DNA from: an uncultured Geobacter sp.
GTDB lineage: Bacteria > Desulfobacterota > Desulfuromonadia > Geobacterales > DSM-12255
Direction of reading: 5' to 3'
DNA length: 35,543 nucleotides
Assembly: GCA_937860145.1 (NCBI GenBank)
Contig: CALMBF010000127.1
Location: forward strand, 1 to 35,543
The notes beneath the pieces are model-generated. The model was not told where the DNA came from and searched no databases. It saw only the letters and a list, made by a program, of their open reading frames with translations. Both the position numbers and the translations under genes were made by a program. Position 1 is the first letter of the stretch. Every line of letters begins with the position of its first letter. Positions 2,943 through 10,861 of this stretch are shown here, piece by piece.

Positions 2943-4289
2943 ATGGATGTAGTATCGCTGAGCCAGCTTCAGTTTGCGGCCACATGCATGTTTCACTGGA
3001 TATTCGTGCCGCTCACCCTGGGACTGTCCATCATGACAGCCTGGATGGAGACCAAGTATGTGACAACGGGTGACGAGACGTGGCTGCGCATGACCAAGTT
3101 CTGGGGCAAGCTGTTTCTGATCAATTTTGCCCTGGGGGTCGTGACCGGTATCACCATGGAGTTCCAGTTCGGCCTCAACTGGGCGGAGTACTCCCGGTAC
3201 GTCGGCGACATATTCGGCGCTCCCCTGGCGATCGAGGCAACGGTGACCTTCTTCCTCGAGTCGGTCTTCATCGGCGTCTGGATCTTCGGGTGGAACAAGG
3301 TCTCCAAGAAGGTGCATGCCCTGACGATCTGGCTGGCTGCCATCGGCACCAATCTTTCCGCGCTCTTCATCCTCCTGGCCAATGCCTGGATGCAGAAGCC
3401 GGTCGGCTATGTCATCCGTAACGGCCGGGCAGAGATGACCGACTTCATCGCGGTTGTCACCAATCCCTATGGCTGGATCAAATATTCCCATACGCTCATG
3501 TCCGGCTACGCACTGGCCGCTTTCCTGCTGATGGGGGTCTCGGCCTGGCATCTGCTGCGCAAGAACGAGGTCGATTTCTTCACCCGCTCATTCAGGATGG
3601 CGGCAGTCTGGGGCTTCGTCGCCTCCCTGATCGTGGGGGTGACCGGCGATTTCCACGCGGTGGAGATCGCCAAAACCCAGCCGAGCAAATTCGCCGCCAT
3701 GGAATCGATCTGGGAGACCAAGAAGAATGCGGAGATGTGCCTGCTGCTGGTGCCCGATGCCTCCAAGGAGTGCAATGCCGTGGAAGCCTTGAAAATACCT
3801 GGCATGCTCAGCTTTCTCGCCTTCCACGACACCGATGCCGAGATCAAGGGGCTGAAGGACTTCCCCCGGGAGATGAGGCCGCCGGTTACCCCCACGTTTC
3901 TCAGTTTCCGCATCATGGTGGGGATCGGTACGTTCATGATCCTGGCAAGCCTGCTCGCCATCTTCCTCTCCCGGAGAGCGAATTTCGTTGATAACAGGCT
4001 GTTCCTCAACCTGATGGTCCTGGCCATACCGGTACCCTACCTGGCCCAGCAGGTCGGGTGGCTCGTGGCAGAGCTGGGGCGCCAGCCCTGGATAGTCTAC
4101 GGGGTGCTCAAGACCTCCGATGCCGTATCCAAGTCGATCACCTCGACCCAGGTGCTTCTCTCCCTGCTCGGCTTCACCGTGCTCTACGGGCTGCTCGGGG
4201 TTGTGGATATCTACCTGCTGGCAAAATATGCGAAAAAGGGACCCGACAACGATCTCGGGACCATTATTTCCGTTCAGGGGAGGGTATAA
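2943..4289 (+). CDS. cydA: Cytochrome bd-type quinol oxidase subunit I
   Basis: Membrane subunit that oxidises quinol and carries the hemes of the bd oxidase, which reduces O2 to water. The 448 residues give about nine membrane segments. Heme ligand candidates are H18 (FHWIFVP), H183 (KYSHTLMSGY) and a Met near 325 (FRIMVG); E98 and E106 correspond to the conserved proton-path glutamates. GRQPW near the C-terminus is the family hallmark. The quinol loop (AKTQPSKFAAMES, ~243-255) is followed by a short insert, so this is the short-Q-loop class rather than the 522-residue E. coli form. GGAGGAG precedes the ATG closely. In an organism of anaerobic type the complex probably serves O2 detoxification or microaerobic growth. 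It overlaps no gene and is 3 bases before cydB. Confidence 0.95.
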   Translation: MDVVSLSQLQFAATCMFHWIFVPLTLGLSIMTAWMETKYVTTGDETWLRMTKFWGKLFLINFALGVVTGITMEFQFGLNWAEYSRYVGDIFGAPLAIEATVTFFLESVFIGVWIFGWNKVSKKVHALTIWLAAIGTNLSALFILLANAWMQKPVGYVIRNGRAEMTDFIAVVTNPYGWIKYSHTLMSGYALAAFLLMGVSAWHLLRKNEVDFFTRSFRMAAVWGFVASLIVGVTGDFHAVEIAKTQPSKFAAMESIWETKKNAEMCLLLVPDASKECNAVEALKIPGMLSFLAFHDTDAEIKGLKDFPREMRPPVTPTFLSFRIMVGIGTFMILASLLAIFLSRRANFVDNRLFLNLMVLAIPVPYLAQQVGWLVAELGRQPWIVYGVLKTSDAVSKSITSTQVLLSLLGFTVLYGLLGVVDIYLLAKYAKKGPDNDLGTIISVQGRV

Positions 4290-4292
4290 GCG

Positions 4293-5348
4293 ATGGATGC
4301 AGCCATTTTCCAGGTTACCTGGTTTGTTCTCTGGAGTGTCCTCTGGGGTGTCTACTTCATGCTTGACGGTTTCGTTCTCGGGACAGGCTTCCTCTCCGGG
4401 TTCATTGCCAGGACCGACACGGAAAAACGGATCCTTATCAATGCGATCGGTCCGGTATGGGACGGCAACGAAGTCTGGCTCCTTACCGCAGGTGGTGCCA
4501 CGTTCGCCGCCTTTCCCACGACCTATGCGCTGATGTTCAGCAATCTCTACTCTGCCCTGATCCTGCTTCTTTTTGCCCTCATCGTCAGGGGGGTCTCCTT
4601 CGAGTTCAGGGGAAAGCTGGACAGTGCCGCCTGGAAGAGCACCTGGGACAAGGCGATCATCGTCTCCAGTTTCCTGCCCGCCCTCCTCTTCGGCGTTGCC
4701 TTCGGCAACATCTTCGAAGGGATCCCCATGCGCAACGATTTCACCGCGCTCCAGTTCAGTTACGAGGGGAGCCTGATCGGTCTCCTCAACCCCTATGGAC
4801 TGGTGACCGGTCTCCTCTTCGTCCTCCTCTTCGCCGTGCACGGAGCGCTCTACATTGCCATCAAGACGGTCGGGGAGCTGAGCGGTCGTGCCAATGCCCT
4901 GGCAAACAAGGTCTGGCCGGCTCTGCTTGTAGTGGCGGTCATCTTCCTCGGCTATACCTATCCGGCCACCAGGCTCTACGACAATTATCTCAAGCTGCCG
5001 GTGCTGTTGATCGTGCCCCTCGTGGCCGTGGTATCCCTGGTGCTCGTCAAGGTCTACGCCGGCAAGGGGGAGTCGGGAAAAGCCTTCACCTTCTCCTGCC
5101 TGACGGTGCTGTTTGTCGTGGCTACCGGGGTAACGGGACTCTTCCCCAACCTGCTCCCCTCAAACATCGACCCGGCCTCAAACCTGACCATCTTCAACTC
5201 GTCATCCAGCCCGCTCACCCTGAAGCTGATGACCGGCGTGGCCCTCGTGGTGGTCCCCATTGTCATCGCGTACAAGATCTGGGTCTATCGTGTGTTCCGT
5301 GCCCCGGTGACCAGCGAGGATGTACTCGGCAACAAGCAAGCGTACTGA
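4293..5348 (+). CDS. cydB: Cytochrome bd-type quinol oxidase subunit II
   Basis: Second membrane subunit of the bd oxidase, structural partner of CydA. The 351 residues contain the conserved N-terminal LWGVYFMLDGFVLG segment and GPVWDGNEVWLLTAGGATFAAFP (~50-72), both diagnostic. About eight to nine hydrophobic segments are seen. The gene starts 3 bases after the cydA stop and is closed by a strong intrinsic terminator 20 bases downstream. No CydX-like small protein gene is visible between cydB and the terminator. Confidence 0.95.
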   Translation: MDAAIFQVTWFVLWSVLWGVYFMLDGFVLGTGFLSGFIARTDTEKRILINAIGPVWDGNEVWLLTAGGATFAAFPTTYALMFSNLYSALILLLFALIVRGVSFEFRGKLDSAAWKSTWDKAIIVSSFLPALLFGVAFGNIFEGIPMRNDFTALQFSYEGSLIGLLNPYGLVTGLLFVLLFAVHGALYIAIKTVGELSGRANALANKVWPALLVVAVIFLGYTYPATRLYDNYLKLPVLLIVPLVAVVSLVLVKVYAGKGESGKAFTFSCLTVLFVVATGVTGLFPNLLPSNIDPASNLTIFNSSSSPLTLKLMTGVALVVVPIVIAYKIWVYRVFRAPVTSEDVLGNKQAY

Positions 5349-6817: not shown

Positions 6818-8743
6818 ATGAAAACCATACATTGTGCACTCTTGCTACTGGGAATCGGGGCACTCCTTAACGGTTGTGGCGGCGGTGTGTCGGGAAGCTC
6901 GACACAGGTCGGGGGAGTTGCCAAGTCACAGGCCTGTCTTGTGGACGGTTGTCATGCCATTTCCTTTTCGAAAGTAACCGGCAAGAACATCGCGGATGAG
7001 TGGAAGGCTTCAATCCACTACAAGATGAACGCTGCAGGATGTGCCGATTGTCACGATTCCTCCCACAACGGCGGGAACAAGTGCGGCGACTGTCATGGCA
7101 GCAGTGTCCCTTCGGCAAAGAACTCCCCGGAGAGGTGCTCGAAATGCCATGGGCTCGACCATCCGACGGACAGGATGGTTGCCCGTTCTCCCCAGCATTT
7201 CGGTGCCATGTCCTCCCATGCCACCCGTTTCTCGAATCGGGACAGGGCAAGCTACGTCAGCGGTCAGACTGCCGGGAAGTGCCGCTCCTGCCACAACCCC
7301 CACGATCCCTCGTCATCCTTTGATTATGAGCGGGCATGGGCCGAGTCGGGACATGGCGATACCCTTTCCGGTACGAGGACGAGCCGCGACTTCAAGATGT
7401 TCGGTACTGATCGTCCGGCCAATCTTGCCTACACCAACTCCAGTCCACCCACTGCTTCCGGTAATTCCAACATCTACCTGGGGGTGGAATACACTCCCGT
7501 CTGCGTCCGTTGCCATACGACAACAGGGTACGTGAATTTCATCCAGTCTTCCGGTTTCCTTTATGTAAAACCGTTCGGCAATAATCTGGGCGGACCTTAC
7601 GTCGATACGACCAAGGAGGTTACCGACTGCACCGCCTGCCACCTGGACTACAGCTTTGCTCGCCGGACTGTCCCGCCCGTGACCCTCTATTTCAATTTTT
7701 CAGGAGCGACCAGGGCCTTGCCAGGCTTTGACGTTACCCAGTCGGTGAAGTTGATCAATAACCCGGTCACTTTTCCTGACCTTGGTTCATCAAACCGCTG
7801 TATCCCGTGTCATTCTGGCCGGGGAATTGGAGAAAACATTAAACAGTTGGCAGCCAAGGGGCTTGATTTCAGTAATTCAGCCAGCCCCAGCGCCCATGAC
7901 TTTGCCGGTGCCGGGCTGCTGACCGCCAAAATCGGCTATGAATTCCCCGGCCTCGATTATACGACCGGCAAGGGTTCCGTAACCCACCATGAGGACAGTA
8001 GCGGCGGCACCGACCGCGGTCCCTGTATCCGCTGTCACATGGATACGGCGGTTCCCGCCCAGTCCCACCATTTCCTGCCGGTCGAGCATGGTGCGGCTTT
8101 CACCCTCTATACCGCAAACCGTACCTGGTCCCAGGTCTACAGTGTCAGTTCCAGCAGCCCCGCCTCACTGGTCATCGGCGATGTTGTCAGCCGGTCCTGC
8201 GCCAACTACAGCTGCCATGCCGGATCCGGTACCAAGTCCATGACCGCCAGCGACCTGACAGGGTACAAGGAGGGGTACATCTCCGCGCTTACGGCCCTGA
8301 ACAAGTTCCTTCGCCTGGTGCGGAACGTACCGGTCGATCCGACTCAACCGTTCAACGCAACCACCAACAAGGCCCGTTCCACCTCGAAATGGGACTACAT
8401 GGGTCTTGGTACCGGACCGAACACTATGGGTGCTTCGTTTAACAACAGCCTGCTGGCCAACGAGCCGGGGGCGTACACCCACCGTCCCCTCTATGCCAAG
8501 CGTCTGATTTACGATTCCATTGCCTGGCTCATGCAGGCCCAGGGGCAGACCAATGTTGCCGATGCCATCCAGTGGCTGGTTACGACTGATGCCACCACCT
8601 TGGAGACAGTCAACGGAGTGGCCAATACCGCTGTCAAGGCACGCATCCCCCAGCACCAGGCTGACGCGGCCATCAAGTGGCTCTACGGCAAGGACAGGAC
8701 AGCCCTCGTCCTGGCTGACAAAGTGAAACGCCCCGGCGAATAG
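6818..8743 (+). CDS. Multiheme c-type cytochrome lipoprotein (about ten hemes)
   Basis: A 641-residue exported protein with a hydrophobic leader and lipobox-like LLNGC (C20), so probably anchored to the outer membrane. Eight CxxCH heme sites are visible at about C75, C89, C107, C155, C229, C271, C328 and C403. Two CX4CH sites, CLVDGCH (C40) and CANYSCH (C461), also fit covalent heme attachment as in cytochrome c3, giving up to ten hemes. The first five sites are crowded within residues 40-160 and the rest are widely spaced. The C-terminal ~170 residues have no heme site. It resembles Geobacter outer-membrane cytochromes in general plan; I cannot match it to a named Omc protein. It leads a co-directional set with a heme-barrel protein and a monoheme cytochrome, which suggests electron transfer across the outer membrane. 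Confidence 0.9.
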   Translation: MKTIHCALLLLGIGALLNGCGGGVSGSSTQVGGVAKSQACLVDGCHAISFSKVTGKNIADEWKASIHYKMNAAGCADCHDSSHNGGNKCGDCHGSSVPSAKNSPERCSKCHGLDHPTDRMVARSPQHFGAMSSHATRFSNRDRASYVSGQTAGKCRSCHNPHDPSSSFDYERAWAESGHGDTLSGTRTSRDFKMFGTDRPANLAYTNSSPPTASGNSNIYLGVEYTPVCVRCHTTTGYVNFIQSSGFLYVKPFGNNLGGPYVDTTKEVTDCTACHLDYSFARRTVPPVTLYFNFSGATRALPGFDVTQSVKLINNPVTFPDLGSSNRCIPCHSGRGIGENIKQLAAKGLDFSNSASPSAHDFAGAGLLTAKIGYEFPGLDYTTGKGSVTHHEDSSGGTDRGPCIRCHMDTAVPAQSHHFLPVEHGAAFTLYTANRTWSQVYSVSSSSPASLVIGDVVSRSCANYSCHAGSGTKSMTASDLTGYKEGYISALTALNKFLRLVRNVPVDPTQPFNATTNKARSTSKWDYMGLGTGPNTMGASFNNSLLANEPGAYTHRPLYAKRLIYDSIAWLMQAQGQTNVADAIQWLVTTDATTLETVNGVANTAVKARIPQHQADAAIKWLYGKDRTALVLADKVKRPGE

Positions 8744-8793
8744 TACCCTGTTGTGCCATTACCTGCGCAGGTAGAGCATCTGAAGGAGCAGAT

Positions 8794-10164
8794 ATGCAAA
8801 CATACAAGCATTGCCTGATAGTTCTTTGTGTCACCCTTGTCATGGGCTCCTTGACAAAGGCCCATGCCATCCCCGCCTTCAGCCGGGAGCACAACACGGA
8901 GTGCGCCACCTGCCATACCATTTTCCCCGAACTGAATGAGTATGGTGACGTGTTTCTGAAAAACGGCTTCGTCTGGGCCAAGCAAAAAAAGGATGACAAG
9001 GGGGGGAACGGGGGAGCCAAGCCCGAGATAAGGGGAGAGGGTGATCCCGCCCTTCTTGCCAAGCTGAAGGAAAGCTCGGCCCTTCCCAACGGGTCGAAGG
9101 GTGAGATGCCGACCATGGGCGGGGCCACTCCCAAGAGCGAACCGCTCTGGCTGGCCGGGCTCCCCCAGACGGTCCCCCTTTCCCTCTCCGGGACCTTGAA
9201 CGCCTCCTATAACGATGACGCACCCTATGACAAGCTTGACCTCTCGACCCGGGCCCTGTCGCTCCTTTCGGGAGGGGTGATACGGGATAAGCTGGGTTTT
9301 TTCGTTAAATACAACCTGTTCGCCGAAGGGGCTTTCAATCCGGCACTGAGCAATACTCCGATCAACAGCGACTCCCCCTACGCAAAGGATCTGGAGGAGT
9401 TCTACCTTGTATGGCGAAACACGTTCGGTACGCCGGTAAACTTCAAGGTAGGTCGTTTCCGGCCCCAGCTCTCCCTCTGGAAAAAGACCAACAAGACCGG
9501 CATTTCGGATCTGGTTACCACGAGCTATCGTGTCGGTTCTTCAAAATTCACCTCCGACTCCCCCGAGGACGCGATCGAGGCGAATGCCGTGCTTTTCAAC
9601 CGGTTGTATCTCGCTGCCGGGGTAGTGGACCGTAATGGGCAGGATACCAACGAAGGGTACGGTCACATCTCCTTGAAGATCGGCGGCTCCGACTTCCACG
9701 CCCGGGAGCCGGAACTCGATCTGGACAACGAGAGTATTTTTGACTACATGTACCTGGTGGTCGGCGCCTATGGCTATAGTGGCCGCAATTCAGGCGACCT
9801 TGCCTCAAATGAGCGTAATAACTTTTACCGGACAGGGGTCGACCTGGATTTCATGGTCAAGAGCCTCAGGCTGAAGCTTGCCTGGGCGAAGGGGCAGGAC
9901 AAGAATCCCGATTTCGCATCCCATGTCCGGAGGATGACGGATGCCTATGTCGCCGAGGCTGACTACATGCTTACCCCCGATCTGCTTGCGTTGTTCCGCT
10001 ACGAGTACCATGAGTCGGGTGATGGTCCGGTCATCAAGCGATACATCCCGGCTATTTCATATGCGCCTATTCAAAACACCAAGGTTACCTGCGAGTACCA
10101 GCATGTAACGACCGACGGAGCTCACAGTAACCTTGCTTTGCTTGGCATAAGAGTTGCTTTTTAG
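8794..10164 (+). CDS. Outer-membrane beta-barrel-like protein with an N-terminal c-heme motif
   Basis: The 456-residue protein has a signal peptide ending near AHA-IPAF (residue ~25), then FSREHNTECATCHTIFPELN with one CxxCH (C37, C40, H41). From about residue 125 to the end the sequence alternates polar and hydrophobic residues with many aromatic girdle residues (for example FFVKYNLF, NFKVGRFRP, LRLKLAWAKG), and it ends in Phe (RVAF), the usual signal for outer-membrane insertion. A barrel with an attached heme is therefore likely. AAGGAG lies 6 bases before ATG 8794. It sits 50 bases after the ten-heme lipoprotein gene, where a porin partner of a porin-cytochrome conduit would be expected. 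The family is not one I can name; porin function is inference. Confidence 0.82.
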   Translation: MQTYKHCLIVLCVTLVMGSLTKAHAIPAFSREHNTECATCHTIFPELNEYGDVFLKNGFVWAKQKKDDKGGNGGAKPEIRGEGDPALLAKLKESSALPNGSKGEMPTMGGATPKSEPLWLAGLPQTVPLSLSGTLNASYNDDAPYDKLDLSTRALSLLSGGVIRDKLGFFVKYNLFAEGAFNPALSNTPINSDSPYAKDLEEFYLVWRNTFGTPVNFKVGRFRPQLSLWKKTNKTGISDLVTTSYRVGSSKFTSDSPEDAIEANAVLFNRLYLAAGVVDRNGQDTNEGYGHISLKIGGSDFHAREPELDLDNESIFDYMYLVVGAYGYSGRNSGDLASNERNNFYRTGVDLDFMVKSLRLKLAWAKGQDKNPDFASHVRRMTDAYVAEADYMLTPDLLALFRYEYHESGDGPVIKRYIPAISYAPIQNTKVTCEYQHVTTDGAHSNLALLGIRVAF

Positions 10165-10200
10165 ATAGGGAAGCCTATTCACTTTACAAGGGAGATCAAA

Positions 10201-10572
10201 ATGATGAGATTGACAAAGATGATGGTTCTTCTGATCCTGATGGCGTTTGCCGCCACCCCTGCAGTCGCAAAAATCAAGGTGGTGGGTAAGGGTGACAAAA
10301 TGAATTTCGATGCTTCGCAGATCCCCAGTGACTTGAAAGGGGCATACGAAATCATGAAGGTCAAGTGTATCCAGTGCCACACCATGGAAAGGACGGTCAT
10401 TGCCATACAGACCGGCATCGCTCCGGTTACCGGGCAACCGTTCGACAAACAGGCGACCAAGGCCTATGGCATTAAAATGCTCCGTAAGCCCAAGTCCAAC
10501 ATGAGCCGAGACGAAGTCAAGCAGGTGGTCAATCTCATGAATTACCTGATCGACGAATCGGCCAAGCCGTAA
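10201..10572 (+). CDS. Small periplasmic monoheme c-type cytochrome
   Basis: The 123-residue precursor has a signal peptide cut near AVA-KIKV (residue ~23) and one heme site CIQCH (C56, C59, H60). Several Met residues C-terminal to it (KMLRKPKSNMSRDEV) could provide the distal axial ligand. A ~100-residue mature size fits a class I-like soluble cytochrome. The start is ATG 10201, with GGAG at 10191-10194; a second ATG follows directly. It is 36 bases downstream of the heme-barrel gene and closes the cluster before a strong terminator. A shuttle between the inner membrane and the outer-membrane proteins is a reasonable guess. Confidence 0.85.
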   Translation: MMRLTKMMVLLILMAFAATPAVAKIKVVGKGDKMNFDASQIPSDLKGAYEIMKVKCIQCHTMERTVIAIQTGIAPVTGQPFDKQATKAYGIKMLRKPKSNMSRDEVKQVVNLMNYLIDESAKP

Positions 10573-10597
10573 CAGGCTTTAGTGCAGAATAAAAAAA

Positions 10598-10631
10598 GAC
10601 CTCCGGGCACCATGCCCGGAGGTCTTTTTTT
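10598..10631. terminator. Bidirectional intrinsic terminator
   Basis: GACCTCCGGGCA (10598-10609), loop CCA, TGCCCGGAGGTC (10613-10624), then seven T; seven A precede the stem. It ends the cytochrome cluster on the plus strand and the nadB-chorismate mutase set on the minus strand. Confidence 0.94.
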
Positions 10632-10651
10632 GTCGGAGGATGTGGGTGTCC

Positions 10652-10861
10652 TCACTCTTCCTTGGCAATCCTGATGACCTGCAGAACTCCGGGCATCTGT
10701 TCCAGGGTCTGCGTATCCAGTCGTCCGGTTTCGCCGATAACGCCGATAATCGTCCTGTTGGCACCGGTTGACTGGTGTATGTCGAAATCACGGTCGATGA
10801 GGTATTCCTTCACGCTGACCAGTTCTTCTTCCTTCGCGGCTTTCTTCATGATGATAAGCAT
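10652..10861 (-). CDS. Stand-alone DAHP-synthase ferredoxin-like regulatory domain
   Basis: The 69-residue protein (begins MLIIMKKAAKEEELVSVKE, contains GANRTIIGVIGETGRLD, ends GVLQVIRIAKEE) follows closely, from memory, the N-terminal ferredoxin-like domain of Thermotoga-type I-beta DAHP synthase, which binds Tyr/Phe and shuts the catalytic barrel. Here it stops exactly at the domain edge, 20 bases before the terminator, with no catalytic part. It starts 2 bases after the chorismate mutase stop, with AAGGAG 8 bases before the ATG at 10861, so the two are translationally linked. It may act in trans on chorismate mutase or on DAHP synthase, or be a remnant of a fused enzyme. The good ribosome site and intact fold motifs favour a working protein. 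Confidence 0.82.
   Translation of the reverse strand: MLIIMKKAAKEEELVSVKEYLIDRDFDIHQSTGANRTIIGVIGETGRLDTQTLEQMPGVLQVIRIAKEE

Follow-up and report, generated by a model that had tools for sequence, protein, structure and literature searches.

A Cyc2-like cytochrome-porin of Geobacterales and its neighbors, a ten-heme lipoprotein and a small monoheme cytochrome

The stretch of DNA analysed here (hereafter the window), 35,543 nucleotides (nt) of contig CALMBF010000127.1 from an uncultured Geobacter sp., encodes a ten-heme c-type cytochrome lipoprotein, a porin-like protein with a heme site of its own, and a small monoheme cytochrome c. Our results suggest that this trio probably constitutes a Cyc2-like conduit, in which a porin plugged by a heme domain would work with a monoheme periplasmic partner, and in which the decaheme protein would relay or store electrons. 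Judged from its sequence, the barrel protein is Cyc2-like without being a strict Cyc2, and is a Geobacterales-specific variant of the Cyc2 kind. The initial annotation of the locus had correctly placed a ten-heme lipoprotein, a barrel-like protein ending in Phe with an N-terminal CATCH, and a monoheme cytochrome. It had also proposed a different architecture for electron transfer across the outer membrane, but that proposal was drawn from a comparison with heme-free porin conduits alone. Proteins in which a monoheme cytochrome is fused to a porin are already in the literature as Cyc2 (PMC8406198, PMC5566968), and homologues in Geobacter have been reported by FeGenie (PMC7005843).

The Cyc2-like cytochrome-porin, recognized by homology and by its conserved heme site, has 456 amino acids (aa; 8794..10164, + strand). 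By inspection, its N-terminus reads as a signal peptide ending in AHA, and a single CATCH (8902-8916) follows about eleven residues into the mature protein, within an N-terminal heme or "plug" domain (residues 25-61; 8866..8976, + strand; AIPAFSREHNTECATCHTIFPELNEYGDVFLKNGFVW). In the alignment of 21 homologues C37, C40, H41, P45, L47 and G51 are invariant. The earlier proposal that a barrel-type protein carries its own N-terminal heme is supported. A low-complexity tether (residues 62-117; 8977..9144, + strand), much shorter in some aligned members and longer in others, leads to a predicted porin-type beta-barrel with a C-terminal Phe (residues 118-456; 9145..10161, + strand). No Pfam or NCBIfam model matches the window protein. 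When the PDB is searched with a profile of the 21 homologues, the phosphate porin OprO is matched (E 4e-4), and Pfam Porin_O_P matches 8 of the 21 members (best 2e-5). Strand-like alternation in the barrel part is weakly above control (spectral test of period-2 hydropathy, z 2.8), and a crude strand count is not above shuffles. The barrel fold is thus predicted mainly by homology, and weakly by the alternation.

Keffer et al. (2021, PMC8406198) define Cyc2 by the fusion of an N-terminal monoheme cytochrome to a 16-strand porin like OprO/OprP, the CXXCH being preceded by AXPXFAR[QK][TY] and followed by PXL. Among the known proteins, similarity is reported to be concentrated at the N-terminus (PMC5566968). 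The window protein resembles the Cyc2 of Acidithiobacillus, Mariprofundus and Gallionellaceae (PMC8406198) in its apparent signal peptide, in its one N-terminal CXXCH set in an AXPXF...CXXCH...PXL arrangement (AIPAFSREHNTECATCHTIFPEL), in a predicted OprO/OprP-like barrel of similar length, and in having a small c-type cytochrome gene nearby. The PXL element reads CATCHTIFPEL, at the same spacing from the CXXCH as in Cyc2, and the 456 aa compare with a Cyc2 length criterion of at least 365 aa. For profile comparison we used six Cyc2-like proteins from annotated plasmids of Methylocystis, Ideonella, Paraburkholderia, Polymorphobacter, Acidithiobacillus and Caballeronia, the Acidithiobacillus protein being from an A. 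ferrooxidans plasmid; the genes on these plasmids likewise adjoin small c-type cytochrome genes. The profile of the window family aligned to this Cyc2-like profile over 361 columns (hhalign, 99% probability, E 6e-18), and the heme domain alone matched at E 5e-19, with reversed controls at 0.2-0.8.

The similarity to the Porin_O_P family, together with the lack of a conserved second axial His or Met in the heme domain across the 21 homologues, could be taken to indicate an ordinary solute porin, whose heme domain would serve assembly or iron handling and not electron transfer. We consider this highly improbable given that the heme site is invariant, that the cytochrome neighbors are conserved, and that the heme domain is the most Cyc2-like part of the protein. 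Moreover, a second His or Met is not conserved in this domain of the Cyc2-like proteins aligned here either. The barrel part gave no convincing profile match to local heme-free Porin_O_P proteins.

Some related arrangements of the heme domain were seen in passing. At locus L137 (genome G116) the heme domain and the barrel occupy separate open frames (213 + 510 aa), and this copy may be frameshifted or split. A few Geobacterales genomes encode proteins of about 250-280 aa that lack the barrel but whose N-terminal heme domain ITTFAQKFNMKCDACHTTVPKLNEFG is similar (L093:2774-3523, L095:2354-3199 and L094:1749-2540). All three adjoin minor pilin genes, and in L093 and L095 also PilY1-like (VWA) genes, a link between a heme module and type IV pili.

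The barrel family is confined almost only to Geobacterales, where it is present in about 70 of 141 genomes; matches occur in 80, a few of them through the heme domain alone. Among 244 sampled genomes of the class, only two outside the order have a full-length member, and a scan of viral contigs found no relatives. One named relative belongs to a Geobacter metagenome-assembled genome (isolate MnB_3), and the host of the window is Geobacter-like. Canonical Cyc2 is rare in the order, being clear in only 2 of 138 genomes (complete in G085, as fragments in G057). The complete protein AVPSFARQTGMSCDECHTIFPEL lies at L098:3104-4516, with a monoheme cytochrome gene just upstream. A search with the strict Cyc2 motif followed by G in 395 genomes of the phylum returned a single match, in a distant Cyc2-like protein.

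Co-occurrence of the three genes elsewhere, which the initial annotation had named as its own test, is well supported in the 72 genomes left after duplicate removal, counting in each case those with enough sequence around the barrel gene. The monoheme gene lies directly downstream of the barrel gene in 63 of 69 genomes. A decaheme homologue lies no more than 900 nt upstream in 53 of 61, and 52 of these 53 homologues have exactly ten sites. This linkage is not a by-product of cytochrome abundance, since in the window's own genome the decaheme and monoheme proteins each have only one weaker relative elsewhere. In the window itself the three open reading frames share one strand, separated by 50 nt (decaheme to barrel) and 36 nt (barrel to monoheme), and they would form a single transcript. 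The terminator proposed after the trio was recovered as an intrinsic one, a hairpin followed by a T-run (10589..10633, + strand; fold -34.4 kcal/mol, z -7.1), although a simple consensus terminator scan missed it. Its symmetry would let it serve either strand.

The ten-heme lipoprotein (641 aa; 6818..8743, + strand; Pfam Cytochrome_C7) has the lipobox LNGC, with the cysteine at residue 20 (nt 6875-6877), and a lipobox is found on most of its homologues. Its heme motifs comprise eight CXXCH and two CX4CH (CLVDGCH and CANYSCH). We aligned the window protein with 54 relatives that had been picked for having ten motifs. All 55 sequences have a heme site at each of the ten aligned positions, and both CX4CH sites are CXXCH in many relatives, which argues that the ten hemes are real and not chance occurrences. 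In two close relatives (L042 and L043) the nearby multiheme cytochrome has 12-13 heme motifs, not ten, and an AAA/DRTGG-type gene stands between it and the barrel gene.

The monoheme cytochrome (123 aa; 10201..10572, + strand; CIQCH at 10366-10380) gives a weak class I cytochrome c signal and has no close solved relative. Met52, Met93 and Met101 are invariant, the latter two being candidate distal ligands. It is the more conserved of the two partners and is kept beside the members outside the order, where the decaheme gene is missing from the fetched stretches; consequently the barrel and the monoheme cytochrome look like the core of the system, and the decaheme protein like a Geobacterales addition.

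The interpretation of the trio as a Cyc2-like conduit should be treated with some caution, as several observations weigh against it. The barrel alone is only weakly similar to Cyc2 (E 1.5e-4, 51% probability, with reversed controls again at 0.2-0.8). The strict AXPXFAR[QK][TY] motif is absent: the window reads AIPAFSREH, and AR[QK][TY] occurs in none of the parsed members of the order, the residues after AXPXF being mostly SRQH, TRAN, SREH and similar. The two members outside Geobacterales do have the exact Cyc2 motif, AIPAFARQY, but with PER downstream in place of PEL. In a maximum-likelihood tree the 21 family members and seven Cyc2 proteins fall into separate, fully supported groups with a long branch between them, and the monoheme partner shows no clear relationship to the cytochromes adjoining canonical Cyc2 genes. 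The upstream decaheme gene is divergent in 31 of 53 genomes and co-directional in 22, and it is missing from the fetched stretches around both members outside the order, though the monoheme gene is kept there; the decaheme protein may therefore be no obligate partner. Finally, AlphaFold run with one or two input sequences gave no usable structure model (barrel pLDDT 28-32, uninformative), so that the size of the barrel and the position of the plug are putative. The window protein differs from Cyc2 in its SREH core motif, in a tether that is long in many family members, in its ten-heme lipoprotein neighbor, in an unrelated-looking monoheme partner, in belonging to a clade of its own and in a host group whose members are known as iron reducers.

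By analogy with Cyc2, the proposed conduit would operate as follows. After export the short N-terminal domain would bind one c-type heme and, held by its tether, plug the mouth of a small porin on the periplasmic side. A dissolved redox substrate could then enter the pore and exchange one electron with the plug heme. The near-constant adjacency of its gene to the barrel gene makes the monoheme cytochrome the likely partner, presumably a periplasmic carrier that links the plug heme with the respiratory chain. Anchored in the outer membrane, the ten-heme lipoprotein would act on one side of the conduit as an electron store or relay. It could face the periplasm, and the earlier statement that no large periplasmic multiheme partner is encoded is for this reason not established. 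As to direction, we lean slightly toward uptake over export, with dissolved Fe(II) or a comparable donor as the electron source, because the characterized Cyc2 proteins, which oxidize Fe(II) (PMC8406198), are high-potential oxidases. Against this lean stands the fact that the hosts are best known as iron reducers.

The opposite direction would be taken by a hybrid outward conduit, in which a surface decaheme protein docks on the barrel, the plug heme is fed by the periplasmic monoheme cytochrome, and electrons are exported to metals or electrodes. Several points are consistent with such a device: the three genes are often linked in Geobacterales, whose members are known as metal reducers, most of the decaheme proteins have a lipobox, and FeGenie mentions Cyc2 in iron reducers (PMC7005843). 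However, if a small porin has its only heme at one mouth, the gap to a surface heme would be long, the substrate has to enter the pore, as argued by Keffer et al. (PMC8406198), and a decaheme gene that is so often divergently transcribed fits poorly. We therefore regard the outward conduit as doubtful. A bolder suggestion is that the conserved trio represents a third type of electron conduit across the outer membrane, intermediate between Cyc2 and the porin-cytochrome complexes, in which a barrel plugged by a single heme is wired to the ten-heme lipoprotein and serves respiration in metal-reducing Geobacterales, not Fe(II) oxidation; this we offer as speculation and hold to be unlikely. The known porin-cytochrome conduits (MtrCAB/MtoAB, OmbB-OmaB-OmcB, ExtABCD, ExtHIJKL) resemble the locus insofar as an outer-membrane barrel is encoded with multiheme cytochromes, one of them often a lipoprotein. 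Their barrels are heme-free (those of the MtrB type being larger, with 26 strands) and are paired with a separate multiheme cytochrome, whereas the window barrel is short and has its own single covalent heme site. The conserved CXXCH in the barrel protein sets the locus apart from complexes defined by a heme-free porin. The genes GSU2934-2937 were considered as the G. sulfurreducens counterpart and rejected, as they belong to the ext/cbc cluster.

In 38 of the 72 stretches fetched (e.g. L052, L047-L059, L096 and L097), among them those of both members outside the order, the barrel gene has close to it a gene whose product is a methyl-accepting chemotaxis protein, with HAMP and MCP signalling domains. 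It could be hypothesized from this that the pore and its cytochromes form a redox sensor and not a respiratory conduit, reporting the extracellular redox state to the chemoreceptor encoded nearby. No chemoreceptor gene adjoins the trio in the window, however, and about half of the loci are without one. Chemoreceptors are generally numerous in Geobacter genomes, and the linkage may for that reason be incidental. A sensory role is in our judgment very improbable.

With respect to what has been described before, the heme-in-pore design is known from Cyc2. FeGenie (PMC7005843) lists a cyc2 gene for G. metallireducens and "cluster 3" Cyc2 genes for G. sulfurreducens and G. bemidjiensis. Cluster 3 is the Cyc2 cluster of most uncertain function according to Keffer et al. 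(PMC8406198). The FeGenie account resembles ours in placing Cyc2-type genes in Geobacter, and in the part available it does not describe the present family, its motif or the cytochrome trio. Since canonical Cyc2 is so rarely clear in the order, these genes probably belong to the window barrel family. No description of the conserved three-gene set was found in the open literature, subscription papers and preprints being outside the scope of the search. As far as we found, the Geobacterales branch and its conserved ten-heme neighbor appear unstudied.

Two further features of the window were seen in passing. The cydAB genes for a cytochrome bd oxidase (2943-5348, + strand) are located about 1.5 kb upstream; this proximity was not noticed in the relatives examined, although no systematic search was made. 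On the opposite strand (10652-10861 and 1088-2155, - strand), a free-standing 69-aa ferredoxin-like domain of DAHP synthase adjoins a chorismate mutase gene, and a DAHP synthase I gene is present elsewhere in the window.

In conclusion, although the Cyc2 gene is used to mark iron oxidation, roughly half of the genomes of Geobacterales, known as iron reducers, contain a Cyc2-like family, mostly with similar cytochrome neighbors. Either Geobacterales possess an overlooked route for electron uptake, or Cyc2-type proteins also work in other directions, and both would alter how the marker is read.

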